Source of the DNA: Ceratodon purpureus
Lineage: Eukaryota > Streptophyta > Bryopsida > Pseudoditrichales > Ditrichaceae
Length of the DNA: 64,000 nucleotides
Assembly (NCBI GenBank): GCA_014871385.1
Contig: CM026431.1
Span: 11,995,594-12,059,593 of the forward strand
Reading direction: 5' to 3'
In this document: positions 1 to 30,335 of the stretch, one piece after another
How the letters are laid out: every line of letters starts with the position of its first letter
Numbering within the stretch: the first letter of the stretch is position 1
Made by a program: the position numbers and the translations under genes
Notes under the pieces: generated by a model
What the model saw: the letters and a program-made list of their open reading frames with translations, nothing else
Databases searched by the model: none
Told to the model about the DNA's origin: nothing

Positions 1-3000
1 CAGTCCTCCAAAGTAACCCAGTTAAACAGCACGTCGTCTTTTGCGAGGTTAGTCAGTCCAACGCCCTGGCTGGAAGGGAGGAGAAGAGGCTTCGGCTGCC
101 TGGCCACGTTGGCACCAAAGGATCTCACAAGCAGGTATGCTTTAAATTTTAAAGTCTGATCATTAAGACAAAGCGAACATCAGAAGAAGCATCTTACAAG
201 TAATATTCATGAGTCAAAAAAAAAAAAACAAAAATAATAATGTAACTCACATAACTGTCGGGGTCTGTGGGATGTGACAAGTGGAGAGCGTTGATTATGG
301 ACCACTCCTTCAACTCCTTGAGGTCGTTGTTGTTGAGAAAGGCAGTCAACTCTTTCTTAATATGTGAACTATCCGGAGCAAAAATCAACAACGCTCCATC
401 ATCATGCAAATAGCCCCCGCAAAATCCAATGACAAACTTCATAAAGAATTTGATTTGCTGGTTCCAGGCAGGTACTTGGGAGGGTGGGTCTGACACTCCA
501 GGAACCGGGAGGCCGTCAGGAAGATCCGCTATAACAAGGTCAACTCCAGGCTTTGACATCAGTTTCCCTCCAAAGTGGAATTCCCGATTCGCACCAGTCT
601 GGATTCACGTAAGAGGCAGAAAATTAAATGATGAATTCAGAATAAAACATCAAAATAAACTACAAAATGAGTGGATATTAGAAATACCTTAAGAAGAAAT
701 GCTATCATGGTGTCGAAAGATTTTGGAAATTTCTTCTCCTTGTTCTTGTACTCCATCATCTTTGGAAAGGTGTCGTTGAGGACCAACACCTCAGAGGAAT
801 GTGCTGAGCTGGACGCAGGCTGGGATATAACCAAGGATTTCAGCGATGGGGGGATAAGTGGGGTACCTGAAGCAATCTCCAAATCTTCGACATGCGGCTT
901 CTTGTGAACCTGCTGCGTTGGTCCAGGTGACTTGGTGCGATTTGGTGCTATCACAGGGGGCGCTTCTTTCTCAACTAACTCACCGCTCGCAGCGGTTGTT
1001 GCAGGAATGTCTTCATCTTGATTCTCTTCTATCAGATCAGTTGCTTTGCGTTTGGCACCCCGAGTTTTGCTTGCCCCAGCTGCCCTTCTAGACTTCTTTG
1101 TTGCCACAGGTGACACATTCGCTTTAGCTGGAGCAGGGGCAATGTTTGCAAGTGTTGGCTGAAGGGAGTCTCGCAGCTGTATATCAAACGGAGGTGGTTT
1201 CTTCACCGGGCAATCAAGATACCAACCACATCGATCATAGTGGCAATTGTCCCATGCCTTCAAGATGGCACTTGTATACATGCACTCGGGACTTGTGACG
1301 TCAAGATAAGTGGGAAAAAAGGCAGGTACCCGCGTCACTGCTTTCCGAGGAAGCAATACGTATTTGAAATATCGGTAAAGGATCCTTCTCAAAGCTGGCT
1401 GAAAATTAGGCTGTTGGTCCTTAGTTTTATTCTTGTGTGCCTGATCAGCCCCCATGAATTCTCTGAAAAATGCATTGTCCCAAAGGGAGCAACGCATGGC
1501 TTCCACATAATCAAATATTTTCTCAATAGGATTCTCGCCATCAGGGCAGTAATTAATGGTAACCCCTAAGTCGGTGACAACCGCCTCAAATAGCTCCTCA
1601 GCTTCTACTGCCAACTGAACAATCAACGATGTTATTAGCAATTGAGCATCATAAGAAACAAGCATCAAAAACAGCATAAAAAGTAGCTGCTGTCAACTGA
1701 TGCACTAAAACACAGTATCATGAGTGCCAATCAGTCGAAAAAAGAAGGAAGACTCTGGTACTGCCGTTAACGGCAGTACATTGGAAGTCTCTACCGGCAG
1801 AACCAAAAAAGCCCTGAAATGTACCGCCGTTAACGGCAGTACCGAATTTGCTTATTTTAATTGTAACTGAACAGTCAAGGAGACTAAAAGCAATTAGTTC
1901 TCAAGCATTGAAAATATTTAAAATAGTAGGATAACATAACAAATTCAAAATAACATTTGCTGAAACGAAGCCTAATGAAAGACTAAGGTACTACAACTGA
2001 AGCTGGGTAATTTCACTTATAAGAAGAACCAGCTTCACTTAGATGCAGCTTCAAATTAGTGAGGCACGTGAATAATATTAGTGCTATATAATAAATAAAA
2101 AAAATGAAGCCCCTGGTACTGCCGTTAACGGCAGTACATTTGGAGTCCGTCGAGGCACTACAATGAAAGCTCTAGAATGTGTTGCCGGTAACAACACAAT
2201 CATAGCAACCTAAGAGAGGTCTCAAACAATTAGATAAAGCCCTTGAAAATCAGATAAATAAGCCGAATGCAAAACTAAGGTAAGTCCTATACTCTTACTG
2301 TTCCAACTAAGGTAAATGTTCGAAGATGTAATTTATTATTGAAGTAGTACTGCCGTTAACGGCAGTACATGTGGAAGCAACTAGAGAGAAACACAAAGAG
2401 CATGTATATGTACTGCCGTTAACGGCAGTACATGTGGAGGCTACCAAGGACAGACACGAAGAACATAACAATGTACTGCCGTTAACGGCAGTACATGTGG
2501 AGTCTAACAAGGAGGATCTCGAAGAGCATTAAAATGTACTGCCGTTAACGGCAGTACCTAAACAGCGTACCATAACATTTCAATTTAATGCGATAAAAAT
2601 ATTATACACTTCAAATAATACTTTGAGAACTAGTTACCTGTGCCCACCATGTGGCTTTGTGAAGCCATGGAGGAAATACTGTGTCGGCGAAAGTAGGCTT
2701 GGGAAACCGGTGTGACTTTCGGATTGACTCAGGGGAGTTCCATCGTTCCAACCACTTGATTTTCATCTTAGTTGGGATGGCAGAAGTTGCGAACATGTTG
2801 AGTTTCTCCTGTTGCATTTCAGGGGATGGGAACTTCTCATAATGAAGTTTGACTTGCTCAAGAAAAGCCGGTGTATGCTTCGGATCCGCAATAGGTAGCA
2901 ACTTCCTTAGTTCCCCTTGTTGCGTGTTAACTACTTTCTCAACTGCCAATCGAACCCATTCATCTACAGACTTGTTCGTCCACATGTGCTTTTCCGGATA

Positions 3001-6000
3001 CATTTCGTAAAATCGCTGCTCCGCGCTTGAAGCCGCTTCACCAATCTCTTGCTGGGAAAACATCAAGTCAAAATATAAGAATTTCTCTAAAATCATTAAG
3101 AACAAACCTCGAAAAATTGAAAGGCAGTTAAGAATTACCTGGTATAAAAATGAATTGAGGGACTCTACTGTGAGAGTGTACCAAGTCCGCTTCGCACCAG
3201 CCTGCTTTTTCTTGGCACTCTCAATCGCCGCTCGGGGAACAAGGCCTTCGAAGTAGCTGAAGGGCTGCGGTGCAACACTCTGTATCCTAAACAGTTTGTG
3301 CACCATATTCGTGGTCACATGAGACTTCTGATTTCTCCTGCACATTTTTAGATGAACTTGTTATTTAGAGAACCAATATCAAAAAGGATATCATAATAAT
3401 AAATAGAGAGAAAATTCATACCAATTTACTTCGTGTAAAGCCGCAATGACTGCTGGAACATCGCCTTTCGGGTCCAGTATAATGCTCTCAACTTTGTAAT
3501 GCCAGTTCATGTCCCGGGAGTGATACTCATTTATGATAGGATACCATGCTTGCAGCCGGTGATTACCATCCCATACCATAAACATTTTATTTGAAAAGAC
3601 CTTCAGATCCTCATCCTCTAACAACGTCTTCTCGAAGTTTTCATTTACCTCACGCCATTCCGGGCTCCAACTGTTCGTGATAGCCGGAGTGACATCAACA
3701 GTATGGCCGAGATTATCCTGGATAGAGACATAAAAAAACCCGTTCCCTTCCAGGTATCCTGTCTTCACGAAGAATGATGCTAGCTGCGAAACGTCAGTCT
3801 TCAAATATGGCCTCACGACTGGGAGAGACTGCATTCGACACAATGGAATAAAAAGCCTACCCTTAGATTTTGGCTCCCATTTTAAATCACCCAAACGCGA
3901 TGCAGTATTCGGAATCTCTCTCTCAACTAGATCGTGGAGTTTTGCTTTCACTTCGCTCTCAGTTAAGGAGATAGCATCTGCAAAAAAATATCAAGATCCA
4001 GGAAGTCAGATGCCTAACTCTAAGTTATATAAGATATAATATAAAGCACCTTGATCATAGCATTTGTTCATAGCCTCGATACTGCTGAAAATTACAATAC
4101 AACGGGAGTAAAAGAAGAGACATATAAAATGGATCAGAACAACTGCCGTTAACGGCAGTACTAAATCAGCTAAACTCCAGATGAAAAAACTAAATTTTGC
4201 GGTTCAAAAAGTTTATCAGAATACCAAAAAAGCGTACTGAAATTTCCCTGGGAGTTGATATATGAGACATCCAATTAGCATGAAAATCAATAGCCGTTAA
4301 CGGCAGTACAAAATCAACCTACTTGAAACTTGAAGAAAAACTAAAAAAAAAATTTGGATTGCAAATAAAATTGATCAGAACCCACTGCCAACCAATGCAT
4401 GATACGAAAATAATGCACTGCATTTGTACTGCCGTTAACGGCAGTACGTTTCAGGTCTGTCAATATGTCCAACCGAAAGTATAAGAACATGTTGCTGTTA
4501 ACGGCAAAATAAAACTAGTGTATAACAAATCAGAAGATTAGAATGCCTTGGTCCTCCAGAATCGTCCATTATCACAGCAGTAATATAAAAATGAGTGGAT
4601 CTTATACCATTAGCAACAAAAATAAGAATAATATGCCTTCAAAAATGTATTGCCGTCAACGACAATATTAAATAGGTATAAAATGGAACTAAGATAAACG
4701 GCTCCTTCGGTACTGCCGTTAACGGCAGTACTCAGAGGACAGATTTTTTTGCGAAGTAGATGACAAATGAACCAAATAGTCTGGGACTGTAAGAGTAATC
4801 TAAAGGTCGAAAAATGTCTCAAAAACTACTGCCGTTAACGGCAGTTAAACTTGTGATGTACATAAGAATAGAGAATGACTGCCCCTTGGGTACTGCCGTT
4901 AACGGCAGTACCTTAGGGGCCTTCGTAAAATTCATCCTAAGTCACCTGCTGTTAATAGATAGTGCAACTAGGTAATAAAACAATGTTGAAGAATTCTAGC
5001 CATTGAGTACTGCCGTTAACGGCAGTACCTTAGGGGCCTTCGTAATATTCATTCTAAATCACCTACCGTGGATAAATAGTGCAATTAGTTAAAAAAATAC
5101 TGTTGAAGATCCGAGCCTTTGAGTACTGCCGTTAACGGCAGTACCTGAGGGGCCTTCATAAAATTCATCCTAAGTCACCTGCCGTTAATAGATAGTTCAA
5201 TTACTTAGAGAAGAATTCGAACCTTTGAGTACTGCCGTAAACGGCAGTTCACTTTGATAAATTCCATATAAGAAATGGTGGAATCAATTTCACTTGCTTT
5301 ACACAATATGGTGAATAAAAGAATATTCTTTGTTTAGGAGAAAGGTTAGTATGATTACTTGAATTACACCTAAAACACGTAAGGCTTATTAAAAAACAAT
5401 CTTCTAAGACTATACCACAGAATTTAACTGTGCGGCCTGGCACCTGCCGTGAACAGCAGTGCCATTACACAGAGATCATGTAAGCACAAATCGTGCCAAG
5501 AATTGTACTGCCGTTAACGGCAGTACTTCTACAAGTACTTTATTCAATCTGAAACCGAACATTCCAAGAATAAACTAACCCTTGAAGTAAAGAATATCTA
5601 AGACGAATGGATATTAAAATGTTGGCAATTCGGCTTAATGTAAAGATTCATTCAGCCTTAAAAACAATCTCGTGAAACAATGGTACTAATGCATTACAGA
5701 AGCAAAGGCCAGATATGTACTGCCGTTAACGGCAGTACAAATGAAGGGCAGATGAAAGGGTGCTCAAGTCCCGTTCGAGTCACATTCAGAACATGATATT
5801 GAAGACCATTGAAGACCTATGAAGACATATACACGTCATTGAAGACCACAAGCTGACCTAAGTACAAGAGAAAACTAAATAAAACAACCTTAAGTATGGA
5901 ATATCTGTGTCTTCATTTTTGGGAGAATTTGTACTGCCGTTAACGGCAGTACAATGGAAGACCTTAGAAACGATTTCAAGGACATCAATCTGGAGCTAAG

Positions 6001-7247
6001 AGGGTGAAATTTTTATGGTAATGTACATCAATGGCAGAGCACTAAAGGTACGAACGCAGGTGGATGAGAGGGTGCTCGAATTAAGAAGTCTATCAAAGAC
6101 CTAAAGCTGACCAAAATACAAATGGAGACGAGTCCCCTTAAGCATGAATTCAAGAATAAAACTGCGTATTCGTGTCAACAACATTGACTGAGTTTATACT
6201 GCCGTTAACGGCAGTACTATCGACAAGCAAATTAGCCAGAGCATAAAAGACAGTAGAAGAAAACAAACCCATCTTAAGGAGATTCAAACCCAACGGAATC
6301 ATACAAATGTTTATGGCTTGACCTGTCTGTAGACAAGATGTTGCTTACCTTCAGACTGCTCCGGCCTTGGATTGACATCAGCGTCGTCTTCTTCCTCGTC
6401 CTCATTGTCGTTGCCATCCTCACCACCAAGGCCATCGTCCCCGCCGTGGCCATCGTCACCGCCATGGCCATCCGCATCATCCAGATTCTCGTCTTCATTG
6501 CCGGGACCGTTCCTCTCAATGGGCGCATCAGAGCGAGGCGTTCTTAAAGCCTTGTCCTGCGTCACTTCTTCTTCGGATTGCTCCGATGCCGCCTGCTGCG
6601 TACCCATCATCTAATACAGCAAACGAGTTCAAAATAATTAGTCTAATCCAAATCTGCAAAGCTCTCAACCTGCTCAATCAGCTAACCAAATTGACTTGTT
6701 CCGCAAAAGAAGTAAATGAGCTAACCCGATTCTCTCACAGAACTCACAGCAGTAAGGAAGATGTCCACGCTTAACCCTAAAGGAAGCTAGAGAAGATGAG
6801 CACATAAGTCGAGGGCAGTATTGGAGGTGGTAAAGGATGGGCGATCTCAACGAGGTCTTAATTATATGGGGAACCTAAAATAAGCTACCATACGATGTGA
6901 ACTGTCGTGTCAAAGGCTGGTAATGGTAACACTCAGTAGGCAACTTGAGTAACATGATTATTGATGTAACATACCTTATTTCCAGCGCTTACACTTGTAT
7001 CTGATTCCACGACTTTTGGGTTTGGATGCTTGAGTCGTCTTCCATAACGCAATGTGCTATCTTCTTCAATTCCCCCCAATGCCGAGTCACCGTCTGTCTT
7101 CTCAAAGTCTAATGCTCTAGTTATGCCATCCTTCTGAAATCTTTCTGCCTCTTTTCTAGCTCTAGCCATCTTACTACGTCTAAGGGCCTTAGTGCTACTA
7201 AAATGTGACGACTTTTTCTTTCGCCGCTTCTTAGGTATAGCCAGCAT
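1..7247 (-). CDS. ParB-like / methyltransferase-like multi-exon gene (runs off left edge)
   Basis: Exons in transcript order: 7247-6975 (ATG at 7247), 6610-6349, at least one unseen small exon, 4081-4050, 3977-3422, 3337-3139, 3051-2638, 1614-688, 598-251, 155-<1. Apart from the missing piece, all junctions keep frame with GT-AG sites. The N-terminus is very basic (KKRRKKK), then acidic with HGGDDG repeats. Exon 3977-3422 holds MVWDGNHRLQAW, which resembles the GxxRxxA core of ParB/sulfiredoxin-fold domains. Exon 598-251 holds GVDLVIADLPDG followed by a Rossmann-like DGALLIF strand, resembling motif IV and the following strand of SAM-dependent DNA/RNA methyltransferases, but with DLPD where adenine or N4-cytosine enzymes have DPPY. 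ParB-plus-methyltransferase fusions are known from phages and bacterial mobile elements. Activity is unproven and the diverged motif could mean loss of catalysis. The gene starts 580 bp from a divergent MULE transposase and may be transposon cargo. Two introns carry the palindrome arrays. Confidence 0.62.
2347..2557. repeat. 63-bp tandem array carrying the palindrome
   Basis: Four perfect palindromes start at 2347, 2410, 2473 and 2536, exactly 63 bp apart. The 41-bp spacers are recognisably related (ATGTGGA.. just after each palindrome, then AAGG/GAGC-rich text) but differ at many positions, while the 22-bp palindrome is identical in every unit. Confidence 0.93.
4890..5250. repeat. Second palindrome array, about 117-bp period
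   Basis: Units start at 4890, 5007, 5123 and 5229 (periods 117, 116 and 106). Each has the palindrome followed by CCTTAGGGGCCTTCGTAA or a close variant, then a CCTAAGTCACCTGC segment. The first three palindromes are perfect; the last has two changes. The unit is unrelated to the 63-bp unit apart from the palindrome. Confidence 0.9.
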
Positions 7248-7829
7248 AGCACACTCAAAACATCAAGATGCAAACATCAAAATGATAGGTTTCACTCATA
7301 ACAGCACAATGCACACACACCCTAGAAAATAGATGACAAGAGCTTCAGTCAGTTCTTATATAGAGTCCTCTCATAATAACGAAAAATACATGGATGAACG
7401 ATATCTGTCCTTTACAAAATTGACATTCACTTGAATCTGCAGACTTTCAAATCGTGCAAAGCCAAAATTTAAGGGATTTTCTATTTTCAACTAGAAATAA
7501 CAATTCCAATACCAGTTCTAACTAGAATTTATTTCAAAGACGGCTATGCCTAATTCTGTGCAAACATTAGACGAGTAGAAAGTGGACCATGATGCGATTA
7601 TAAAAAATACTTTGGAATGACACATCTGCACACCAAACGACGGCTCCATAATTGATTCATTCTATTCTCTCGTACGCCTTTTCATCTACGAATATGAGAT
7701 ATATAGAATTCACTTAAATGAATGTAAAATTCTACTTAGAATAAATAGAGTGATCACAATGTCCTATTCCTCTCAATTCGTGTTCACAAATTCCTTTAGC
7801 ACCAGTTCGTTCTATCAGCACATCTAAGC
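7248..7829. promoter_or_regulatory. Head-to-head intergenic region between ParB-like gene and transposase
   Basis: This 582-bp AT-rich spacer separates two divergent start codons and so must hold both promoters if the starts are right. I see no palindrome copy in it. TATATAGAG near 7359 and ATATATAGAA near 7700 are possible TATA elements for the minus and plus genes. The assignment is positional inference. Confidence 0.4.
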
Positions 7830-10800
7830 ATGGCTCATATCCCTGCAGACAGAGTGTTAGGCATGGCCGTGCTCAGAGCACAGGGTGTTGGTATTCCACT
7901 TACAGTACGTGTAGATGAGGATGGCTTGGCCCTTGTGACGGCACAACGCCTTAGCCTCAGATTTCACTTCAGAGAGGAGACTATCTGTTTAGAGGAAGAG
8001 ATTTATGATGATGAGACAAATGAGATTACACATACGCTAGATCAGGTTTCTGAGAAAGATGATGATGATAACAGGTTCTGGAACCTTTATCCTGGTAGAT
8101 ACAGAGTTTATGGTCTTACAGAGTCCCAGATGCAGGCGTCTACTGAGATTCTAACTCCTCGTAGATCATCTACTGTTCAAACTCCTCTGCCTCGTGATGT
8201 GAAGGTTAAGGTAGAGCCTGGCTTGGACACTCCTGATGTAACACCAGTCATCTCTCTCTCGTCAGATGAGGAGACTAGTCCTGTCAAGGCATCACCTGCT
8301 TTGCCTAGAGTGACTGTAGTATCTAGCACGCCAGCTACACTACCAGTTAAATGTGCCAGTACCTCACAGACATCAAAGGAGCAGACTGTCAATGTACTGC
8401 CACTCATTATGACTCTTGCAGAGAGACCTGGGAGGAAAAATATTCTGAAGAGAATAGATTTCTCCACAGTTCGTCAGGAGAAGGTGGAGTACTTACCTGC
8501 AGTCTTCAACAACAATGTGATATTTGAGCTCCCTCCAGTTGGTGACGGGGCTTCCAAGACACAGGCGAAGGCTATGAAGGGGATGGACAAGCGGTACGAC
8601 GGCCACATTTGGACGAAGACAATCACTACCAACATCACTAACGAGTTCGGCCTGTCGTTCCGCTATTCCAGCTGCGTTGGTTGGCTGCGCTGCGTCAACA
8701 AAGAATGTGAATTTCTCAACCGTCGACCTCGAATCGTTGAGGTAAACGAGACTGAGTTTGAGGGTAGTACCCTCCAACCTTTTACAGTGAATCAGCCACC
8801 CCCAGCGGATGCAACACTTGTCTGCAAGGTATGTAAAGAGCCTCCTGCATGTATTGCTACATGCGGAGCCAAGATTTATTATGTTCTAGGTAAATCCAAC
8901 CAGACTAGGGCATGTATCCATCAAGGAACACATAATCATCCAGTGAAAGTTGGAGACTATAGAGACACTAAGGAGGAGATCAACAGCTTGATTGAAGAAC
9001 AGGTGGAGAATACTCCCCGGGCTACGAAGAGCGCCGTTGTCCTGGAGGCCAGCAAGATTCTGATTGGAAACTACCTTCTACAGCCTGAGGACGCTCCACC
9101 GAAGAAGCTCACTATGGAGGAGCTCATTCCTGTACTTGACCGGTGCAAGGACATGGCTTCCCCAAATATCCGCAACAAGGTGATGACGTTCAAGCGAATT
9201 GCAAGGTACGGAGTGATGGACGCCATCACCAAACTCCGTGGGATCAGTTTGTGGGCCTTCGTCCAGGAGAACAAGTTCCCAGGCCAAGGAGCTGACAGAG
9301 AGAAGGTCTTCGTCTTCAAGATGTCAGAAGTTGGGCCGGGTTCTGGTGTCGACTTAGTCACCAGAATGCAACCTGGTGGGGATCTTGACAATGCTTGGAT
9401 TATGTTCGACCACGTGAAGCGTGTACGGGATTGGTCCACGATGGCTTGCCATGTTTATGACGCCACCTACTGCCGCGTCATGACGATCGCAAGTTGCGAC
9501 ATGCAATCCGAGGACACCGAGGCTCAGCTGGTCTTCTGGAAGAACCTGAACAGCGTTATGGAGAGGAATGGCGTTGCAGCGCCAAACTTCAAGGGGTTCA
9601 TGGCGGACAACGCACAAGCAAATTGGAATGCGGTGCGTATTCTCTACGGAAACGGCAACAAAGAAGACAAAATGGAGGATCGGGAAAGGTCATGCTTGTT
9701 CCACTGGACCCAGAACATGGTCCAGTACACTGACAAGTACTTCCCCGAAGAGCTCCGGGAACAGCACAAGAAGATGTGCAACCAGTATAGGACAGCAACG
9801 ACTTTGACAGAGGCGGACACTCTTTATCACGCGTTGCAGGCATGGTGGATATCTACTGGGGTCCTGGGAGAGAAGGCCCTAACCAATCTGGGGACTTGGC
9901 TCGCATTCTGGCACCACCGCTATCGTCAGTGGGGTGGATTCATGTCTGCGGTATGATGCTACTAAACCCTGCTGCTGTACTTGTTTTCTGTACAGGTAAA
10001 TTTACTCGACATCACTTCTATAATTGATCCTAATTATTGTAATTGCTCAAACTGCAGAAATTTACTGAAGAAGAACTCACAGAGATGCCGACGTGTAACC
10101 TCGCCGAAACAGTTCACAATAAGTGGTTACAAGCATCAGGCAACAACGGCAACGACCTCTATGTTGCCACTGTGGACGATTACGTCCGGGGCTTTCTGCA
10201 GGTTGTAAACTACTACCAGTTCCTGAAAGGAGATGTAGGCGGAACTGGACCTTCAAAGAAGGAACTCAAGCTTCGAATGGCGGAACGCTTGGCGAAGAAA
10301 ACAGGAAATCCTAAAGTCCTTAAAGATCCCATGCTGGATATGCCTGGTGCAGATGAGTTCTGCACCCGTGAGCCTGTCCTGGCCGGAGCAGAGGTGTTTG
10401 GATCACAGAAGCGTAAGGCGGACGTTCCCATCGGAGCTGACGAGGAGTCACACCGACCAGACAAGGTAAACTTCTCACGTCCCAGATGTGTTGGACGCAA
10501 CGTTCGAGCTCGCACTGTCCAGCTGCCCATCATCGTGGAAGACGATTCTGAAGAAGAAGAGGCCCAAGAATCTCCCGCCCAAGAAGCTTTCTCGCCCTCA
10601 ACGTCTCCTGTGAACGAGGTCGGCGTTCGCCATGTCAACTATGTTGAAGAAACCAAGGTTGATGTGAAGGAGTGGCACATTGCAAGACTTCACAAAGCTT
10701 CTGCAAAGTGCTGCTGGGCCCAAAGAGCTGGTACAAAAAAGAAGTGCACTGAGAGAATTGTCAGGGGCCCAAACTTCACTGCTGCACCGACCTACACCGG

Positions 10801-11541
10801 AGTTTGGACAAACTATCGCAGGAATACGGTTGAGAGGACAGAGTTTTTCTTCTGCTCTGATGATATTGAGCGCTGCGTGAAAGGCACAAGGCGCAAGTGG
10901 GTTGCACACTACTCCAAGGACCTCGAAGTGCCGCCGATTCCAGAGGTGTGGCCCGTAAAACTAGGTACTAACCTGAAGCTTAATGAGATCCTCGCCCTTG
11001 AAGCTGCAGGGTTCCAACTCCCGCCGAAGAAGCCTGTCTCCCCAGACGTCTCTTCTCGTCTGCTCCGCCTCCTGCAAACCTCGCTTCGTTGCCGATTCCA
11101 GCAGAGGCTGACCGCTACCCTGGTAAGCGAGATGGGAAGATGGTCAAACGCACAGCAACTCGACCTAACCCAGCGCAGCGACTCTCCATGGGCTCCTCTC
11201 AGTCCCTCAAGGCTCGCCTCCGTTCCATCACCATGATACCTCATCCAGGCCATGGTTGCATCATCGGGCTGGATTCGGGCGTTGCTCCAAACATCACACA
11301 GTACAACATCACCATCACCTCTTACCCAAGTTGCACTTGTCCAGCATTCAAGAAGACGATGACTAAGTTTCGAGGTAAGATACAGTTTTCATACTGTAAA
11401 CATATTTATTACATCCTTTTAAAGGTTTGCAACCGTAATCCGGAGGCCGAGCTTTTCATCCATGCGCCTACCTTTAGTTTCAACGAAGTCAAGCTAGTCC
11501 TAGAGAGCGGAATCTTGACACATCCCTTGGCCAAAAAATAG
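7830..11541 (+). CDS. MULE-type transposase with GCM1-like and SWIM zinc motifs
   Basis: Exon 1 is 7830-9950 (ATG 7830, donor GCG|GTATGA) and exon 2 starts at 10057 (acceptor CTGCAG), in phase 0. An acidic N-terminal region of about 240 residues precedes a WRKY/GCM1-like zinc motif (two CxxC-type pairs, then GTHNHP near residue 380). The catalytic core shows VYDATYCRVMTIA and FKGFMADNAQANW, which match the first two acidic residues of a MULE DDE transposase; the third is not clear. The C-terminus has a SWIM finger (CTCPAF ... CKHIYY), usual in MULEs. The frame changes once near 11.09 kb: the part ending LLRLLQ is in one frame and PIPAEADRYPGKRDGK in another, so a very short intron or a one-base indel lies there. 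Otherwise the gene looks intact. It is divergent from the ParB-like gene. DNA cut-and-paste in the nucleus is the family role. Confidence 0.8.
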
Positions 11542-11800
11542 GAGGCACTATACTATTACGGTCTCAAGTATGCATAGTGGACAGTGATACATGCGGATAC
11601 TTAGCCCGAGGTGATTGAATTTTTCCTTGTACTGAGTCAGCAATACAAATCTCGTATTGCCTATTTCAATATAAAGGTTTTGTCTTTCACATTTATTACA
11701 TTGTATTACAATAGCATTCATTTCAACAAGTGGCATTTGTTATTTATATCAACGCACAATTGGACTGTACTCACTCCATGAATACATTCAAATATAGATT

Positions 11801-12253
11801 TTATTCCTTGAACTTAATGCGTTTAGGTATCCCCTTCGCATTTTCAGCACAATCACGAACTACCTCCTGCACTACAGGACAAGCTACATTGACATTCATT
11901 GTTCGTTCCCTAATTGGCACTTGTCGTGGGCGGGGACGTTTCAACAATGGAATAGCTTCACTCTTTCCACGTAATGCCTCCCTAGAATAAGTCCCCGGTG
12001 GAATCTTCCCGACCTTGGAGTATGCATGAGGTGCCAAAGGGACAATCGGTTCCTCCTGAGGAACTACGAGAACGCGTGGCTCTTCTACAGCCACTATGTC
12101 TCCTATCACATCTATTTTTGCTTCCACGCCATCATTTTCAGAATGCTTTTCATTGCACCCATTCAACTCCTCTTCCCCCTCGACCTCCTCATACGGATGA
12201 AATGGGCCAAGGACATCACCAAGTGAGATAGTGGTTTCCCCGGCAACTTCCAT
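11801..12253 (-). CDS. Small acidic protein, unknown; convergent with transposase
   Basis: An open frame of 150 codons from ATG 12253 (MEVAGETTISLGDVLGPF) to a stop at 11801, lying 260 bp beyond the transposase stop and convergent with it. The N-terminal half is acidic (EEVEGEEELNG), the C-terminal half basic and proline-rich (KRPRPRQVPIRER, ending IPKRIKFKE). No domain recognised. A TATA-like box lies about 120 bp upstream of the ATG. It could be a third gene of the same mobile element, in parallel with the small gene of the 22.8-33.9 kb element. Function unknown. Confidence 0.45.
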   Translation of the reverse strand: MEVAGETTISLGDVLGPFHPYEEVEGEEELNGCNEKHSENDGVEAKIDVIGDIVAVEEPRVLVVPQEEPIVPLAPHAYSKVGKIPPGTYSREALRGKSEAIPLLKRPRPRQVPIRERTMNVNVACPVVQEVVRDCAENAKGIPKRIKFKE

Positions 12254-12301
12254 ATCACAACACGCTCTTCTTGGAACTTGATTCAAGAAGAGCACGAACA
12301 A

Positions 12302-12612
12302 AGAGGATGAGAGCTTCTACTGCCACTACTTAAATATTGAGGAGGTAGATGCTCGGCGCCCTTGAATAGTGGGATATATAAGAAGGTTTAAATATTATAA
12401 CACTCCATGGCATGAGTAGGTTTGTCATCACTGTTTTGATTAATTTGTAGACAAAATACCCTAAACCATCAATGGAGAATGAACTAGAAGGTCTTTCAAA
12501 AGATAAAAGATAAAAAATGAAAAGGTAAAGACTTAGAAGATAGTAAACTAGAGGACGAATGAAAAAAAAAAAAGTGATTAAAAAAAATAGAAATCAAAAA
12601 AGATAAAAGATG

Positions 12613-12709
<97 letters not shown>

Positions 12710-13041
12710 TGAAGAAAAAAAAGAAAACAGTGTAAAATAAACTAAAATTAATGATAATAGAATATAAGAACAATGAAAAGATAAAAGGTATGAAAGTTGA
12801 AAATAATTAAAAAACGATTAAAGATAAAAAGAATAAATGATAAGGAAGAGTTAAAAGATAAATGTTAAAAAAAATTAAAAATTAAATAAATATAAGATAA
12901 TAAATGCAACTTCTAGATGATGCATTAATACAAACCGTAAATAGTATTTAAAACGATTAACCAAGAAGGAAATAACACAAATGAAAAATTAAAATTATCA
13001 GAAATAGTGAATTCCAGTCCACGGTTATAGGGTCATAATAA
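12302..13041. repeat. AT-rich spacer with (TA)n microsatellite
   Basis: The spacer is dominated by A-rich text with GATAAAAGAT and AAAAGATAAA words. An uninterrupted TA dinucleotide tract of about 45 units runs from about 12614 to 12706. No coding signal seen. If the transposase locus is a transposon, its right end should lie in or near this interval, but I could not identify it. Confidence 0.85.
12375..12381 (-). promoter_or_regulatory. TATA-like box for the small convergent gene
   Basis: Minus-strand TTATATATCCC, about 120 bp upstream of the ATG at 12253. The spacing suits a short 5' leader. Confidence 0.4.
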
Positions 13042-14692
13042 TTACCAAAAATAGTAATATTCTCTGAATATTCTAAAAATATTCTGAGAATATTCAAATT
13101 TGCTAATTATAGTTTTTATTTTTAGTAATAATGTTACTGTTTTTAGATTTAGCCCTCTATTTTCTGCTCGTCGCTCACCAAATCTCCGCTCGCCGCTCTC
13201 CGCTCGCCGCTCGCCGCTACCATACAAGCTACCCCCGTTCACGAGCCGCACGGACTTGAGCCCCGGAAACGGATCGCCGTTGTCCCCCTGGTCCTCCTTC
13301 CGCTCCAAATCCTTCTCGCCATCGCTCTGCACGAGCGCCACCTTGTAATTCGTCTTCTCACTCGTGTTGTCATCTTTCGTCTCGTCAATGTGCCACACTA
13401 GCAGCCCGCCCGACGGCAGGTCCTTGTCGCGCCCCTTCTGCTGCCGATCCTCCACCAAAAAGTACTCCGACTGCGGAGCGCCGTCTTTCCATAGCTTCAA
13501 CACCTTGTATGAGTCCTTCACGTCAGGCAGCTCAACCCTGTACCATTCATTGCCCACAAGTTATCCACTGAATATTATCACCCTGGAAATTGTTGTGCAA
13601 TATATCAGACACTAATTCAATACAGTTTAAACGAAAGATTAGATCTGTCGACCGTATGTCTTGGAGGCAAATGTTTGCAGTGGGTGATTTAACTTACTGC
13701 TGAGTCTCGGTGGGAGTGATGACTTCCACCCACCCTTGGTCAACTTTGCACCATGCGCACGGAGTCGAAGGGTTATCTTCGTTGCCGTTGTAGCTCCCAG
13801 CAGCCATGAGGCACCAATCGCCGATGCCACCCGATGTGTAATCTGCATCATAGAGGTCCGGCCAGCCGAATGCTAGATGGCCAAGCTCGTGGGCGCAGAC
13901 CCCGAGCTGACAATTCGCCGGGACGGTGAGATAAGAGTAGATTTGCGTGCCGTCGGCTTGGTAGGGGCCCTTGTCGAGCACCCACTTGTGAGACCAAATG
14001 TCGTTACCCTTCCCAGTCCTCTCGGCACCAGCGCCGGCGTGTACGATCACGAAAGCGTCGACGAAGCCGTCGCTGTCGTTGTCATACTTCGTGAAGCTCA
14101 CATTCGGGTTCGCTTTGATAGCCGCGTCTCTGGCCATGGTTCTGGCATTCGGGGTCCGATCTGCTGTTCCGCTTTGGCCGTTCGCGTAGTAGGAGATCGA
14201 TTTCGGCATGCGGTATGGCCCAACGACCTCGCCCTTGATGTCCACGGCTCCGTTGGAAACCTCCTTGAAGTAATCCTTGACGCTGTTGGCTCCCTCCTCG
14301 AACCATAGCTTGGTGTAGTGCTCCTTGGTCTGCGATTCTGTGAACTTCTTGTCAGAGAAGTCCACCATCACTACTATGACATTCACGTCGCCCCGCAGCG
14401 GAGTCCGCTCTGCGAGTTGTGCGGCAAAGGTCATACCCGGCCGGTAAGTGTTGCCGGGGCGGAGCAGGGCGTCGTTGAATCCTGGTGGACGCCTCTCGAT
14501 GGGACGCAGCACCTCCCGCAGGAAGGACATCTCAGAGCTATCTGCAAGTCTTTCTTTCATCTCATTGTATTTCTCCAGCAGGTGCTTGCGCACTGTAGGG
14601 TGTGGTGCAACAAGGCATCGATCCTCGACGGAGTGAGGGCGCACAATTACAGATGCTGGCGGCGCCATTATCTCTCGTCTGTCAGAAAACAT
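13042..14692 (-). CDS. M6-family (immune inhibitor A-like) metallopeptidase
   Basis: Exon 1 is 14692-13698 (donor CA|GTAAGT) and exon 2 is 13537-13042 (acceptor TACAG|G); the 160-bp intron joins them in frame (TETQ-VELPDV). The zinc site HELGHLAFGWPD at about residues 268-279 and the following GIGDWCLMAAGSYNG are hallmarks of peptidase family M6. Exon 2 adds the family's EYFLVEDRQQ and GGLLVWHIDE segments, so the catalytic half is complete. After LVNGGSLYG the protein runs into a low-complexity GERRAES repeat and stops, so the usual C-terminal region is missing or replaced. No secretion signal is visible, although bacterial members are secreted. Typical members are bacterial; a spliced plant-genome copy suggests old horizontal transfer followed by intron gain. 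Start alternative: ATG of MAPPAS, 24 bp downstream. Confidence 0.8.
13155..13218. repeat. GAGCGGC-type low-complexity repeat
   Basis: Imperfect repeats of GCTCGCC/GCTCTCC (plus strand), encoding the GERR repeats at the end of the M6 peptidase frame. Probably replication-slippage sequence that now forms or interrupts the gene's 3' end. Confidence 0.7.
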
Positions 14693-16782
14693 CAATCGAT
14701 GTAACCCATCAGCTTCATATTCCCAACATTTTAATTTAAGTATACAGATGCTGCATTTTCAAGCTACGGCCGACTAGCAGACCATGGCAACCTCTGAACT
14801 TCTCTTTCTTGCAATGTAGACGGCGACCTTGTTACCGTGTTAGTCGAAGTTCTCTGAGCGAAGCTTTACGATCCTCTCAGCAGGACTATTCTGGGGAGCA
14901 TGCTGCATACATATCACATACAATTTGAAACAAAATCAGAAGCTAGCGCAGCAATACTGCCAAGGCTGCCGACAGCGCACATTGTATACTTTTGCGTGCA
15001 TGACATGATGTAACTGCACGTTGTTAAAGAATGAAAATACAAGGAATCTTGTTAGATCAAAGTTACTATTGACAGTGGACACCTTTCTAAACTTCACTAC
15101 GCCCCGAGCAGTCTTAGAGAATAAATTGTTACAATTTATGACTGGGTCATGTCGATTGAAAACAGAGTTTCTCTGTCACAAGGTCATTCACGTCTGGGAG
15201 ATATGTTGCTCGTTGTGAGCTTCAAGACGTTCTTGTACAACAAAGTTAATAATTCAAGTCCATGTATTGACTGCGAGACCACAAATTTCGATCGAAAACT
15301 GAGTAAATCTGAGATTGAAGGGACAGAGTGTGGCTGTCGGTATCTATTTAAAAGGAAAACAATGATTAAGTAGATCGAGAATACCATCCGTCCCGATCAG
15401 AGGCATTAGGAGGGGATCACTGATCAATAGCTACTCAAAGTATCAAAGTCTGAAATTTCTATCAGGTTTTGAAACCTGTCCGAACACAAACAAGAGAACA
15501 GAGTCGAAGATCGAGAAGCTAGATGCACCTCAAGGAAGGCGGAAGAAACATTCTGCAAGCTGAAAAATTAAACGGGAAGGAATGAGTCCCACGTACCACT
15601 CAAGGGCTAAATGAAAACTGCAACCACGGTGGTGCGGATGTCGGTCGGAGAGGGGAGCTGCGATCGAGAAGAGATTGATGAATAAAAGTTTCGAGGAGGA
15701 ACTAGTTATACCAGGTGGGCAATGATCACTTAACCTACTCCGAGCACTTGACCCATACGTCAGGGCTTATATGATCACTGTGTTCTGCCTGAGCTTCAGT
15801 TCTTCAGCTTTCCGTAGAGTTTGCTCAAAACGCACGCTGCCACGCAGATCTGAGATTTAACGAGTCCAGAGTTGTTTTTCATTTCCGTCATTGCTGGCTC
15901 ACAAATTAGTGCAGCTACTCAGCAATACTCTTTGCATGCACTGCTATAAGAAGTACAAACATACATGGGATTCGGATCAACCGTGGCTCTTACTGATGGA
16001 AAGTACAAATTACCGTAGTACTTGTCAATTTGACGCATGAGCTGCCAGGTCTAAATTTGTTTGAGAGTCAATGCATTGCATTTCAAGTGTCCTATGGTTC
16101 ATTTGTGCAACTAATCACGGAGCACATTGTTAAGTCGTTTGTCAGCAGGATTTGATTTAGAAGCTATTGCTGCTGTACACGAGGCTGCACATCCGCCACG
16201 ATAAGTTTCCCGTATCAAATTGAATGGACCTACCCAAGTTTATCGATGGAACGTGCTCAAGACTTTCTAATGTCAGATCGGCCAATGTCACTGGAAAACT
16301 TTAATATTTTTTTTAATTTTAATTTTTTTGGAACAAATGAAACAGGTTTCATTGCAAAAAGACAGAGTACACACCCGATCAGCCACAAGTGGCCTGATAA
16401 CTTTAATATTTTTCATCTCTCACAGCGAGAGACCATTCAGGATAATTTTGGACTTATCACATTCTTAGTTTCTGACTCTTGTGGGCCAAATGACCCCTGC
16501 CTCAGAGTTTAAGAACGTACGGTGGTCTATTTCTACCTCGTTGGAAATGTTCACGTAACCTGCTCAAACTATTTGCCAACCCCTCGACGGAACAGGCGTA
16601 ACGTACGATTCACTCATTATAAATCACCGGACATGACATTCATAAGAGAAAAACAGGACTGGAAAGCTGGAACAGTACTAAGTCTTGCAAGTTGCTCGAC
16701 TGCAGACAATCAACAACTCTCGAGTATACTCACGTAGCATGTGTTTTTAAGAGCAATAATGGACCTCTGCTATTGTAATGAA
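14693..16782. other. Gene-free interval
   Basis: No convincing coding exon, RNA gene or element boundary on either strand; only short chance open frames. It holds the promoter of the M6 peptidase gene. Confidence 0.6.
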
Positions 16783-23399: not shown

Positions 23400-24334
23400 T
23401 GGCAGCCTCCTGGAAAAACGGACTCATTTTATGCCATTGCCTGAGGAGAGTTGCGAGAGTTGTCTCGTGGGGTGGTGAGAGTGTTCCCTCGAGAGGAGGT
23501 GCGAGGGTTTATATGCGCGCGTTGTCAAAGTTTGCTAATTTCTCTGCCAATTTCTCTCCGTTTCCTTCTCCGCTGTCTCGCGCCATTGTTAGATGTGTTA
23601 CGCTTAGTGTTTGTGAGGTGGAGAGTGTTGTGCGAGAGGCGCTTTCATGGGCGGAGAGTGTTGTGATAGAGTTTGAGAGTGTTGTGAGAACTGAGGAGTC
23701 GGAGTCTGTTGCTGGAGCCGCGATCGAGGAGTTTGTGCGATTTGGTCGGAGGAGGAGTGCAGAGGCGATTTCGCAGAGACAATCGAGGTATGTATACGTT
23801 CATCATCTTCTATGTGTTTCTTTTTATGGTGTTCCGGAGAGACGATAGCGATTTTGTTGCCGGAGTTTGTCACAGAGATTAGTTTTAGGGTTTAGTAGTC
23901 ATACGTCACGACGTTCTGGGGTTTAGGGTTTAGGATAGACATGTCTCGTGGAATACTGTTCAGGTGTATCTTCTCTGCGGTCGTTGTGGGTGGCCTCGCT
24001 GCTATTGTCGAAATCAAATGAGGACGACGATGTCGCCCCCGTTACAGGAGTGTCTCGCGTTGGAATTGGGAGGGAGTTCTTGAGTATACCAATTTTGTGC
24101 ATAGAATCTTAATTTCTGTTCCGATTCGTCGTTCATGTTTCGCCGAGACAAAGATCCGTCGTAGAGGCTCCTTCCTGTCGTCCACAGTTCCTGCCGAATT
24201 TGATGTGCACGGTTTTTGCTTCGCAGCTGTCTCGCAGTCTCGGCGCTGTGTCTGTGTCTCGGAAGGTCTTATAAACTTCGCATCCAGGTTACTAACCTCC
24301 GCCCCTGTTTGTTTTAGGTTCAAGTTAGCGAGAC

Positions 24335-27300
24335 ATGGCTCCCGAGTACAGGAGGAACCTCCAGATCACGGACGACGGCGTCACGGAGGTCCACGAAAGC
24401 GACAAGAAGTTGTTCACGGAACACTACACATGGGAAGAGTGGAAGAATTTGCTCCTGGAGTGTCATAGCGCGCCGGTGATGTTAGGACGTCGATTGTTCT
24501 GCTGCAAGCACAAATGCCGTGGCAAGAATGGGGAGCCCATGTGTGCTCAGAAGGCGCGTCTAAATACTCATAGATGGCACGGGTGCCCCCAAAATGTCGA
24601 CGCGAACGGTTTCGTCATCCCGGAGAAGATGTACCCGAACCTGCTTGAGAAGAACGTTACCATTGACAAGCTGCAAGCGGGTGTCTCGCCCCAGAAGTTG
24701 GTGAGGGACTACGTGAACGAGACACAGGCTATGTTGCGGCGAGGGGAGCCGGTCAAATTCCAACAAGGCGTCCCTGCGATTCGTGGTCCGAGTGATAGAT
24801 CGCCGAAGAAGCAGACGAAGAAACCCATGAAGGCCGAGAGAAAATCTGTCCCTGATAGGTTGGCTGTCAGGAGTTTGGAAATGGTGCTGAGCAGTTCAGA
24901 TTCCGAGGCAGAGGCAGACAGTGACTTCGTGGCCTCGGACTCGCCCGTGGTGGAGCGAAGACCGTTCATCGCCAATCCCGAGACGGCACCGACGCCTGCT
25001 GTTGTCCCTATCATCCTCTCACCGCCCCGGCGAGACACATCTGCAGGCGAAGAGGACGCCACGGGAGCTGTACCTGATACGTTCATCGTTCTTCCTCGGG
25101 CAGGACTCACTCCTCGACAGCGAGACAAGAAAGGACGAGACATTGAAGTGAAGGCTTCCAAGCCGGAGGAGGAACCCGAGGAGAGGGAGTTTTACTCTCG
25201 GAAAAACAAACGCAAGACCACCCCGGCACAGAGGGTCCCAGCGGCAAGGAGCGAGACAAACACGACGGCAGCGAAGCGACCGAAACCATCGGACGAGAAA
25301 CCGCCATCCCCAATCCGGGACGAGACAGCCGGGTACGCCTCGGATACGTCTCGGATACGTCCCGGGGACGGCTCTGAAATGGCCGTCTCCACTCCCACTG
25401 TCCACACAGAGGATACTGGAGCGGTGGCTATGGTGGTCGACGAGGCCCCGATGGAGGTTCCCCTGAGCCCAATGTCCGCCTTAATGCGAGACAAGGAGAA
25501 GGTTGTGGAGGAGGCTCAAGAGGCAGCGGAGTCCCTGTTTACAATAGATCCAATTCGCCAGCCCGAGACACGCTTGGGACACACGGGCCTCACCATCCTA
25601 ATGGATTATGGGCTTTTTGGGGAGGAGAGGGAGTTCCACACGTGGGACAGGGGAACTCTTCGGACCAGACTGGGGGAGTTCTTGAAGAAGGAGGGGCGCG
25701 AGACAATCATCTCGCTTACCTACTTCCGATTCCAGAAGTTGAATCGAAAGGTACGACATCTCCTCCCTGGAGTTCTCAACTTCATTATTTTATAATAACT
25801 TGTACTTGTCGTGAATATGTTGCGATATTTTAATTCATTTCCGTCTATCTTTCATACTTGTCTCGCACTTCAATCTGTGCCTCAAGGTTGCTAACGGGGG
25901 AGGACTGCCGTACTCTCTGAATTGCAGAATTCTCTATACTCCGAGAGAGATAGCGGTCTAGCGGCAGATCTTTCTGAAGTGTTGGACACCGGGGAAATGT
26001 CCGAGACAGAGATGGATCGTCTCGCGAACGCCTCCATGGACTACTACGTCAATGTCCACGACTGGAAGAAACACGAGGAGGCCGTAGATGCCCAGCGCCT
26101 TCATAACGCCAGACTGAAGGAGAAATTCATCGCGGACAGGGTTGCAGCGTGGGAGGAGTCCAAGGCTGGGGAGTTGGAGGAAGTGTCATGGGGTTGGAAT
26201 CCCCTGTACCACATATGCGCGAAGAACCCCGCTGTCTCGGAGAGGCTACCTCCCATGCCCTGGAAGCACAACGAAACGGAGGCGCGAGACGTGGTCAGGG
26301 CACTCGGTACGAGACGGACGCTGCCAGTCGGAGCAGGTCTGGAGGCAAAGATCATTCGCGTTTTCCTCCTCGTCCACAATATTCGGTACAGGTCAGTATT
26401 GTGTACTTGTTTATTTTTATTTTTTCCTCCTGAGGTACTTTATTCAATTCAACATAATTTAAAATAAAAACAAAACCGTCACGGGCCCCTCATATTTTCC
26501 TCGTGCTCTGGTATAACAGCTCAGCGGACCCACTGCAAGGAGCACTGGACAAGAGTGTCCAGGAGAAGTTGTCTTCGCCTGGAGCTCTAGACACAGCGAG
26601 GTGTCTCGTTCAGGCCGCTGGGAGTACACTGTTCGGTGCTGATCCAAACGCCGAGACGGAGACGTCGGACGCCATCACAGCAGCATGCATGTCCCTCCAC
26701 AGCGGTGTCTCGGATGACCTGCAGGCGTGGCTCCTTTCAGTCCAGGCTCGGGCACTGGAGGACTTTGCATCTTCCGAGACGGAATCCTTTATGACGGCGT
26801 GGCAGTTGACGGCGCCCGTCTCGGAAGAGGTATTCCCAGAGTGCTTGAAGATTTTGCGGCAAGCATTAACTCGACGGGAGGACCTAGATCTCCGTTGGAT
26901 CCCTCTCGCGGATGGTAAGTTCATATCCGACACAGAGGCCATGTTCTGATGTCTTGTAGTGAGAATGTCTCGGAAATAGTTCATGCGTTCCGAAGCTAAC
27001 GGCTTGGACCTTCTTTGCAGAGCCGGCCTGGGCCTCTGGTTTGCGCAGTGCGTTGTCAGTGCGCACTTTCTTGAATGGTGTCGCTCAAGACCGGTGGTCC
27101 GCTGCCGAGACGGCTGTTGACGGGGTTTCGCGAGACAGGTTGGTGTACGGGCACTTGAACGTCCATGGTCACGCGATACCTGTCGACGAACCTGCACAAG
27201 ACTCGGAAGGGACCGAGACAGCGAGCCCTTCATCCCCATTTCACAACGAAATGAATGAGGTTGTTGACATTGCCTCCGTGGATTCGCCTCGCCGGTACGA

Positions 27301-29100
27301 GAGTCCGCGAAAGGAGGCTGCCTCATTGGAGACAGTGGCAGCCGCGAAACCCACAGGTGAGTGTCCCGGAACATGGACCCAAGAATTGCGAGACGGGTTC
27401 AGTTCCCTGCCATTGGGCGATGGCATTCCCTCTGCATCCCAGATGGACTGTTTCGGATTCTCGCAATTACTTTCTTGCACACCAACTCATCATACAGTGT
27501 CCAGAGGGACATTAATTAACGGGGGTTGCAATATTGTGTCTTTACTAGACGCAGTGGCGGCGTCCGAGACAGTGGTCCAGGAGGACAAGGAGCCGGAGTC
27601 AGACGAGGGACAGTCCTCTGGAATTGGGTCACGAGAGGAAGGACTCAAGATTTGGGACCTCGACTTTGGCGCACCAATACCGCCGAGTAAATTGAAACCG
27701 GGGAGCCACTGGATTTTTAAATTCATGGACCCTGCCACGCCTGTTCCGAACACATTGGAGCCCCCGAAGGATTTCAAGACGGAGCTTGTCTCGGAGGGAG
27801 TACAGATGGATTGGAAGGCAGTGCTTGGGGTATTGATGATTCCATTCCACGTTGGCTGCTTCAAGTAAGTTCTTAAGTTCGTGAATGGCATGTTTTATTA
27901 CTCATGGTATGTTTAGGCTCGTTGTGTCCATGTTTTTTATTCTTGAAAATGTTTCGCGGTGTCCCGATATCATGTTCCTATAGCGCTGTCCAGGTTCTAC
28001 CCTGTCTCGGATCTAACATTATCACTGTCTCCTATTTCAGGCAAGGGCATGTGGCCGAGACGGAGTACGGGGATTACATCATCTACTTTGGTAACGACCC
28101 CCGGATTGCCGTGAAGATCCCTGTCCTGGTCCAAGAGTGGGAGTGCGTACTCAGACCACAGGCGTGCATGATTGGGCCATTCGTGGACCTCCTCCTGCGG
28201 CACTTGGTTCTGAGATCGCCGGACCACGTCGCGAGACAGTATGTGGTGGCAGAATCCAACGTCAATACTGTCTTGGATGCGCACATCCTGGAGTGCAACG
28301 GGGACTGGGAATGGCTGGGGAGTTTCGGAATCCGGTGGCTCTCAGGTTGCAATGGCCGGGAGAACACGTTGGTGATCCCTTATTGCGATAAGGATCACTG
28401 GACCCTGTTTGTTGTGGAGGTTGACACGACATATCACCTTGGATCCCTCCTCCACATACACGACACGGAGGCTCGAGACAACTTCGTGACGTTGGTGCAC
28501 ATCGCGTGGGCGAGCTCCAGGGGAATTGTTCCGGGATCGCAGGACTGGTGGAAGGTAGTGTCTCGCGGATGTGTCTCGCTCAAGGCTCCGAACCAGAAGG
28601 AGTCATGGGAGTGCGGATACGCGATGAGTTTCCAGTTCTGGCAGTACATGGTCACTCGTGGATATGGTTGTCGTTTCCCGAAGCCTGCGGAGAAAATGAA
28701 GAAGAAGCGGTGGTTGAAATGGACTGGGCAGCAAATGCAGTTGTGGTTCTTGGAGCAGCTGTACATCGAGACAGCCCGTGCGGACGACAGATTACCAAGA
28801 CCGAGGATCTGCGGGACTGGACTGAATGACTTGCCTAACCTGATGGAGGGGGATATCGTTGTCCCGGACTACGTCACAGTAAAAGGCGGGGTCCAAGTGT
28901 TCGGTATTTCGGCAGCGATGTCTCGGACCGGGTACAAGGTGGATGCGTTCTACATCCGTGAACCACGAGCACCAGGTTCTGAGGAGGAAGAAGACACAAA
29001 GGCGAGGCTCGGAAGCGCCACCAAGTCCAGGAAGTCTAAGCGTGAGAAATTCGAGAAGATGGTGCACTCTCCTTCAGGCTCGGCGAGACGACGGCTGTAG
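24335..29100 (+). CDS. Transposon-borne Ulp1-like (C48) cysteine protease
   Basis: Five exons fit exactly in frame: 24335-25750, 25928-26391, 26520-26914, 27021-27864, 28041-29100, giving 1,392 residues. The N-terminus has a C/H cluster (FCCKHKC ... MCAQKA ... HRWHGC, about residues 50-85) that could be a BED-like zinc finger. A long charged, probably disordered middle follows. The C-terminal 350 residues form the Ulp1/SENP peptidase: KDHWTLFVVEV supplies the histidine (about residue 1158), LLHIHDTE the aspartate, and NQKESWECGYAM the oxyanion glutamine and catalytic cysteine (about 1235). All four positions are present. Ulp1 enzymes remove SUMO; in MULEs the role is unknown, perhaps releasing the transposase or chromatin from SUMO-linked silencing. 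The exons are full of the CGAGACA motif. The gene is convergent with the transposase. Confidence 0.85.
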
Positions 29101-29942: not shown

Positions 29943-30335
29943 TCTGCGAACCCAATTGAACGCCAAACGGGAACTACGGAAACTGGTACCCCGTGATTAT
30001 GAATCCCACTCAACACTTGCAGAAATAAAAAGACAGTACGAGTCGTGGCGGGTGTACTTATAGGTAGAGTTCCCGCTGTCTCGATCCGAGACACATCGAA
30101 TATAGAAATCCGAGACAGGGACGTGGGGTCACTCCTGCGTGGATCTGGGCGGACGTCCGACGCGTCCCCCGTCGAGGAAATCCCTATTCCGTTTCAGCGA
30201 GTTGGGCTTGTTCGGGTCATTCCTCTCAAATCTTGGGGCGTCTCGCTCCGTTGGATGAAGGAGACCGGCTAGAATCCTCGTTTCCATGGCAGCGTGTCTC
30301 GTATTCATCTCTGCCAATTCCGCCGCCAGGTGCTT

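Follow-up and report, generated by a model that had tools for sequence, protein, structure and literature searches.

The closest described counterpart of the system reported here is found in the VANDAL elements of Arabidopsis, a group of Mutator-like elements (MULEs) with a cargo gene encoding the protein VANC. According to PMC5735166, VANC binds a short motif arrayed in the noncoding DNA of its own element, the introns of the cargo gene included; the motifs differ between families, VANC carries DUF1985, and the transposase VANA is much better conserved than VANC. The VANC anti-silencing system of VANDAL MULEs is also treated in PMC10398659, and PMC6446971 describes VANDALs as non-TIR (terminal inverted repeat) elements. 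Here, we analysed 64,000 bp of the genome of the moss Ceratodon purpureus (contig CM026431.1, positions 11,995,594–12,059,593; the whole stretch is referred to as the window), in which a MULE-type transposon carries a gene with arrays of a 22-bp palindrome in two of its introns. The palindrome is itself conserved and changes together with the gene between subfamilies. To our knowledge, sequence-specific escape of a transposon from silencing is known only from the VANDALs of Brassicaceae, and among the papers listed from the open-licence PMC literature, judged by titles and the beginnings of abstracts, none dealt with this element or with a VANC counterpart in mosses.

Results

Palindrome arrays in two introns of one gene

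The perfect 22-bp palindrome GTACTGCCGTTAACGGCAGTAC is present in the window in 14 exact copies and in 19 copies if up to three mismatches are allowed (one mismatch at 1821 and 6196, two at 4140 and 5229 and three at 4826). All 19 are located between 1758 and 6217, and none was found in any of 100 shuffles of the window. They are distributed over two introns of a single predicted gene on the reverse strand, referred to as the cargo gene:

6349–6610, reverse strand: exon 1, acidic N-terminus
3978–6348, reverse strand: intron 1, with 12 palindromes at up to three mismatches (8 exact)
4140–6217, no strand: palindrome array of intron 1, from the search of the window for the 22-mer
3422–3977, reverse strand: exon 2, conserved domain with the motif DGNHRL; at least 150 matches in the genome
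3139–3337, reverse strand: exon 3
2638–3051, reverse strand: exon 4
1615–2637, reverse strand: intron 4, with 7 palindromes at up to three mismatches (6 exact)
1758–2557, no strand: palindrome array of intron 4, from the same search
688–1614, reverse strand: exon 5
251–598, reverse strand: exon 6, where the methylase-like part begins; degenerate motif IV ADLPDG
1–155, reverse strand: beginning of exon 7 with methylase motifs X and I; its start is deduced from the splice phase, and the gene runs on outside the window (locus L005)

Introns 1 and 4 have GT...AG ends and lie between conserved exons, which join in frame in the predicted gene model; a small extra exon at about 4050–4084 was discarded, as it would break the reading frame. 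A preliminary description had reported 14 exact and two one-mismatch copies in two introns of one gene, and the recount reproduced both numbers and coordinates. Its addition that the palindrome occurs nowhere else holds for the window, not for the genome, which contains 564 exact copies.

Constraint on the 22 bp

In a comparison with 29 paralogous loci (a few of them near-duplicates; L026, L030, L038 and L052 were kept in), 17% of the aligned bases mismatch within the palindrome footprints; the value is 44% for the flanking 22 bp, 42% for the other intron sequence and 12% for the exons. Conservation steps down between 11 and 12 bases from the palindrome centre, which is exactly the edge of the 22 bp. 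For the per-position analysis L026, L030, L038 and L052 were left out as duplicates or near-duplicates, and copies with up to six mismatches were taken. These criteria gave 512 copies from 31 loci; 262 of the copies match exactly. Variation affects 2–6% of the copies at the core positions and about 9–14% at the first, second and fourth position counted from either end. Both bases of a palindromic pair are changed together 36 times versus 23 times expected for independent changes, the pairing is kept in only 15 of these 36 double changes, and a single one of the 250 non-identical copies is a perfect palindrome. Since so few double changes preserve pairing, the letters and not the fold appear to be maintained. 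In locus L052, all 16 palindromes are exact despite saturated synonymous divergence (dS) in exon 2, and 11 exact copies are present in L009, which, like L006, is only 66% identical to the window in exon 2. Footprint mismatch, edge step and per-position constraint all favour selection on the site itself, as had been supposed from the drift of its surroundings; equal conservation of the spacers, named beforehand as evidence to the contrary, was looked for and not seen.

Distribution in the genome

The assembly comprises 362,488,568 bases in 151 contigs, one of which (C6) measures 110.5 Mb. The 564 exact copies of the 22-mer compare with 0 copies of the reversed control. Exon 2 has at least 150 matches of 64–100% identity, most of them without stops; as 150 of 1851 candidates were scored, counts of protein matches are lower bounds. 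The lists of exon-2 and of transposase places extend to 150 entries each, and those of site patterns are likewise limited in length. Within these lists, 45 of 50 places of the 22-mer lie within 5 kb of an exon 2 (36 exon-2 places, 35 from the genome list and one from L006), where 0.1–0.5% would be expected by chance; the palindrome is thus tied to the gene family and not scattered evenly. Four of the five remaining places (C1:28054k) adjoin exons 5–8 of a further gene copy, L011, at which no exon 2 was matched, and the fifth belongs to L010, an array without recognisable exons. The array of L010 (C1:7084000–7089000, positions 2406–3723) consists of 9 palindromes at up to seven mismatches and is of mixed type (GTACTGCC... 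and GTAGTGCC...); it possibly represents a further subfamily or a non-autonomous element.

The confinement to the two introns is general. All 30 best-matching loci, the window's included, have copies on the intron-1 and the intron-4 sides (295 and 144, respectively) and 0 in the span of exons 2–4. In five elements read end to end (18.6–22.3 kb), the 15–19 palindromes per element at up to three mismatches all fall within one internal span of 3.0–4.4 kb, with no copy elsewhere in the element or in the flanks examined, and exon mapping assigns the palindromes to the stretch on the 5' side of exon 2 and to the interval that separates exon 4 from exon 5.

About half of the 150 listed exon-2 matches are located on contig C6, which is probably a sex chromosome. 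For Ceratodon purpureus, a genome of 358 Mb with sex chromosomes making up about 30% is given in a 2026 review (PMC13120521).

Site variants change with the gene

Across subfamilies, which are designated here by the exon-2 identity to the window, the arms TGCCG and CGGCA are kept and the 4-bp centre varies between TTAA, GTGC and TTGC. Elements of the window type share the TTAA centre with the 66% type (L006 and L009) and a 70% type (L055); for the 70% and 72% types, intron sequence derives from one locus each (L055 and L054). L054 lacks the window palindrome in the same intron even at six mismatches and carries repeated (A)(C/G)TGCCGGTGCCGGCA sites instead. In L055, 12 sites are present, 11 with TTAA and one with TCAA, and the palindromes extend well past 22 bp. 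Positions 317–1639 of this locus (C7:17211400–17213100) form a head-to-tail series in which each unit is about 106 bp in length and constitutes a long imperfect palindrome with TGCCGTTAACGGCA at its centre, and inverted-repeat arms of up to 239 nt are set end to end.

Genome-wide, the TTAA core TGCCGTTAACGGCA occurs 1344 times versus 0 for its control, the GTGC site TGCCGGTGCCGGCA 480 times versus 6, and the arms with an open centre, TGCCGNNNNCGGCA, 2871 times versus 187. Of the first 50 listed places of TGCCGNNNNCGGCA, three listed exon-2 loci account for 31, and arrays more distant from any listed exon 2 (C1:5387k, C1:5414k and L010) for 15; the other 4 are singletons, about as many as chance would place in 7 Mb. 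Among listed places, 90 of 100 GTGC sites have one of 13 exon-2 loci, each 69–72% identical to that of the window, at a distance of no more than 5 kb, and an exon 2 from the list is equally near to 35 of 50 TTAA cores; none of the exon-2 loci has both centres. TTGC accounts for 8 of the 10 sites around C1:270223, where exon 2 is 67% identical. GTGC sites flank exon 2 on both sides in 12 of the 13 GTGC loci, the 13th being covered in part by the listed places. That two separate introns change together suggests one trans-acting reader encoded by the element: this joint change, as far as sequence comparison can tell, points to a single trans-acting reader and not to local duplication alone. The earlier suggestion that the sites may be the gene's own targets is thereby indirectly supported.

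A shared transposase beside a diverging cassette

Comparison with other genomic copies places the cargo gene inside a transposon of 21,620 bp with its right end at window position 13236, which agrees with the link to MULEs suspected beforehand. Its features are as follows:

1–13236, no strand: right-hand 13.2 kb of the 21,620-bp MULE-type transposon; the left end falls beyond the window, near C11:11987210
13182–13236, reverse strand: right TIR of 55 bp, which matches the left terminus (local match of both termini)
13237–13245, no strand: 9-bp target-site duplication GTTCACGAG; the second copy adjoins the left end outside the window
7830–9956, forward strand: transposase open reading frame (ORF), divergent from the cargo gene; 131-aa core at 9456–9848
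10043–11541, forward strand: ORFs resembling, and presumably representing, later transposase exons; SWIM-like zinc finger at about 11329–11424, weak (E 0.014, below the cut-off)

A 9-bp target duplication, different in sequence each time, borders all five elements examined, and termini similar to the 55-bp TIRs of the window element are present in the other four. The main transposase ORF has no match in Pfam, and the SWIM-like finger of the later ORFs stays below the cut-off. As nothing beyond this weak finger was recognised, the assignment to the MULEs is based on the TIRs, on the length of the target duplication (9 bp) and on an apparent resemblance to MULE transposases. A further ORF of the element family (498 aa; L014, 6074–7570, forward strand) gave weak coiled-coil matches only; its cysteine-rich C-terminus looks RING/PHD-like by eye.

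Pairing of 76 exon-2 places (75 of the 150 listed plus one in L006) with 75 of the 150 listed transposase places, none of them on contig C6 or on the small contigs C131 and C46, which were excluded, yielded 43 loci with a divergent transposase 4.0–6.6 kb upstream of exon 2; 33 of the 76 exon-2 and 32 of the 75 transposase places had no partner. The transposase core is 95–100% identical in 35 of the 43 pairs. In 21 pairs exon 2 is at most 73% identical and yet the core at least 95%; in 14 both are high and in 8 both are lower. Between the window element and that at C1:23.68M, dS of the transposase ORF is 0.006, whereas the DNA of the cargo gene aligns at 74–77%. The cargo gene together with its sites thus diverges like a cassette set next to a transposase that the elements have in common. 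The centre of the sites may differ despite a 100% identical transposase core, as at C1:18077736 (TTAA) versus C2:17208270 and C3:19090233 (GTGC). Two loci of the 70% type contain an extra three-site array 229 bp beyond the transposase core.

The cargo protein

Exon 2 is under purifying selection, with ratios of nonsynonymous to synonymous divergence (dN/dS) of 0.02–0.06 in those 7 comparisons, out of 11, for which a ratio was obtained; dS is saturated versus L052, L053 and L006. The S-adenosylmethionine (AdoMet)-binding part of PF01555, with motifs X, I and II, is matched by exons 7–8 in all four members scanned (best E 2.4e-5), the match of the window member (E 0.0054, 17.1 bits) lying below the curated cut-off of 26.7. 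A PDB profile search retrieved the adenine methylases RsrI (E 0.0064) and DpnA (E 0.019), and the AdoMet-binding motif reads DLTAGTG. In such methylases, motif IV has the consensus DPPY or, more generally, (D/N/S)PP(Y/F/W). In the cargo protein it is [DEN][LF]PD in all five aligned members (two pairs of which are close relatives), and the second proline and the aromatic residue are absent. Owing to this degenerate motif IV, active methylation at the sites is doubtful; of the methyltransferase part proposed in the preliminary description, the methylase-like C-terminus is supported.

The label 'ParB-like', originally given to the N-terminal region, found no support: Pfam, PHROGs, NCBIfam and a PDB profile search were all without a ParB match, and the label goes back to the motif DGNHRL in exon 2. 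Pfam recognised no family in the spliced 902 aa, and DUF1985 was found neither there nor in the C-terminal part. A single-sequence structure prediction reached a predicted local distance difference test score (pLDDT) of 38 and was unusable.

Elsewhere in the window

Just past the right end of the transposon, a Peptidase M6 (immune inhibitor A type) domain is encoded at 13694–14758 on the reverse strand (E 3.6e-24). The region 24329–32563 contains long ORFs which by eye resemble other transposon genes (possibly Ulp1-like at 27877–29100, transposase-like at 30336–32563); two ORFs scanned from it had no Pfam match. Scanned for Rfam families and for tRNA genes, the window yielded 0 matches.

Discussion

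We consider it on balance probable that the product of the cargo gene binds to the palindromes located in this very gene, the most likely effect being anti-silencing of elements of its own type. In this scenario, deduced from sequence comparison, the cargo-gene product would, most likely as a dimer, recognise the TGCCG...CGGCA arms together with the subfamily-specific 4-bp centre. With the sites arrayed in noncoding parts of its own element, the product would act only on elements of matching specificity and would most likely shield them from silencing, as VANC proteins do for the VANDAL MULEs of Arabidopsis. We tentatively extend this proposal to a self-recognition system that might have arisen independently of VANC, in which a protein derived from a methylase would read (or mark) the bipartite palindromes arrayed in introns of the gene that encodes it, the common transposase is traded and the cassettes diversify into mutually blind types, possibly with a base modification as the label of self.

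Several observations do not fit a binding protein with anti-silencing function, or fit it imperfectly. CpG depletion reveals no consistent hypomethylation footprint: the introns exceed the rest in element C, not in element A, and are split in element E. No DNA-binding domain was recognised in the cargo protein, and a search of about 5.8 billion predicted proteins, a collection of uncertain plant coverage, found nothing homologous to its residues 88–480 at E 0.001. The association of sites and genes is also incomplete, as 15 of the 50 listed TTAA cores and 10 of the 100 listed GTGC sites are more than 5 kb away from any listed exon 2, and the 9 copies of L010 are accompanied by no recognisable cargo-gene exon within 5 kb. 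Moreover, single loci are mixed: one of the nine sites at C1:240329, a GTGC locus, is TTGC, two of the ten at C1:270223, a TTGC locus, have centres other than TTGC, and C1:5409026 combines 8 TTAA and 2 TCAA on the intron-1 side with TCAA in the two listed sites of the intron-4 side. Finally, the distance between sites is not strictly proportional to that between proteins, TTAA being common to the 66%, 70% and 100% exon-2 types, and the intron evidence for the 72% and 70% types comes from one locus each.

Among the alternatives, an autoregulatory or immunity module without any role in chromatin silencing appears rather unlikely. The product would then bind the sites, control its own gene and set the copy number or activity of elements of the same type, for which repressor and operators of lambdoid phages provide a parallel. 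The position of the sites within the gene of their putative regulator and the exchangeable cassette of gene and sites beside a nearly invariant transposase (window versus C1:23.68M) would agree with such a module; however, operators would be expected in the promoter region between the divergent genes, where the window element has none, and 15–19 sites per element are many for an operator. Self-marking, in which the methylase-like protein would modify the palindromes (N6-methyladenine, 6mA, or N4-methylcytosine, 4mC) and thereby label its own element, is compatible with the binding-site reading and draws on the PF01555 match with motifs X-I-II in all four members, on the relation to RsrI and DpnA in the profile search and on the suitability of palindromic sites for symmetric modification. 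The [DEN][LF]PD sequence of motif IV in five of five members nevertheless makes it improbable.

An RNA signal, with the palindrome forming a hairpin in the intron transcript and acting in splicing, in small-RNA production or as a decoy, is very improbable and was dropped as the principal explanation chiefly because pairing-preserving changes are scarce. The perfect 22-mer could fold, double changes exceed expectation (36 versus 23), and 72 of the 90 listed GTGC sites near a listed exon 2, counted by eye, share the orientation of the gene; yet the other 18 are opposite to it, pairing survives in only 15 of the 36 double changes among the 512 copies of the 31 loci, and of the 250 copies that deviate from the 22-mer only 1 is perfectly palindromic. 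A role of the sites as targets of the transposase or of a host factor (enhancer, insulator) might account for the three-site array 229 bp past the transposase core in two 70%-type loci, but the centre differs between elements with 98–100% identical transposase cores, and host factors are common to all elements, so that we attach very little weight to this explanation. That the palindromes are a neutral satellite, homogenised through tandem duplication or gene conversion, is hardly credible: tandem units of 63 bp, 117 bp and 106 bp do occur in places, those of L055 being palindromes of more than 40 bp, but the flanks diverge freely where the 22 bp do not, and the identical 22-mer is retained in paralogs with saturated synonymous sites.

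If sequence-specific anti-silencing by the cargo protein proves true, it would be a second, unrelated solution to this task, in a moss, and the evolution of protein–site specificity would become directly testable in a family that offers several site variants, a gene present in at least 150 copies and, as an internal control, a well conserved transposase. It would also show how transposons exchange recognition cassettes, and it bears on the content of the very large contig, probably a sex chromosome.

Compared with known systems, bacterial ParB-parS shares with the moss element a palindromic site near the gene and a DGNHRL-like motif, but the cargo protein has no ParB profile match and the palindrome does not resemble parS. 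With the beta-class DNA N6/N4 methyltransferases (PF01555, RsrI), the cargo protein has in common the motif order IV-like, X, I, II, the AdoMet-binding motif DLTAGTG and weak profile matches; here, however, motif IV is degenerate, a large N-terminal region of unknown fold is fused, and the gene is transposon cargo in a genome with spliceosomal introns. In the immunity regions of lambdoid phages, a regulator forms a cassette with its palindromic sites, and the two diverge jointly within an otherwise nearly identical element. The cassette divergence is alike here, but it concerns an unrelated protein and many sites located in introns of a eukaryotic DNA transposon. The most extensive likeness is that to VANC: both are encoded by a MULE cargo gene, the motifs are arrayed in noncoding DNA of the own element, vary by family or subfamily and grow by tandem repetition, and the transposase is conserved while the cargo gene has diverged, as in 21 of the 43 pairs here. 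VANC differs by its DUF1985, in place of which the moss protein has a methylase-like C-terminus, VANC21 by the motif YAGTATTAY in same-orientation arrays in place of a 22-bp palindrome, and VANDALs by being non-TIR where the moss element has 55-bp TIRs. With no DUF1985, a palindromic site and TIRs, the cargo protein is therefore not a VANC, but as far as the sequence tells it would work like one.

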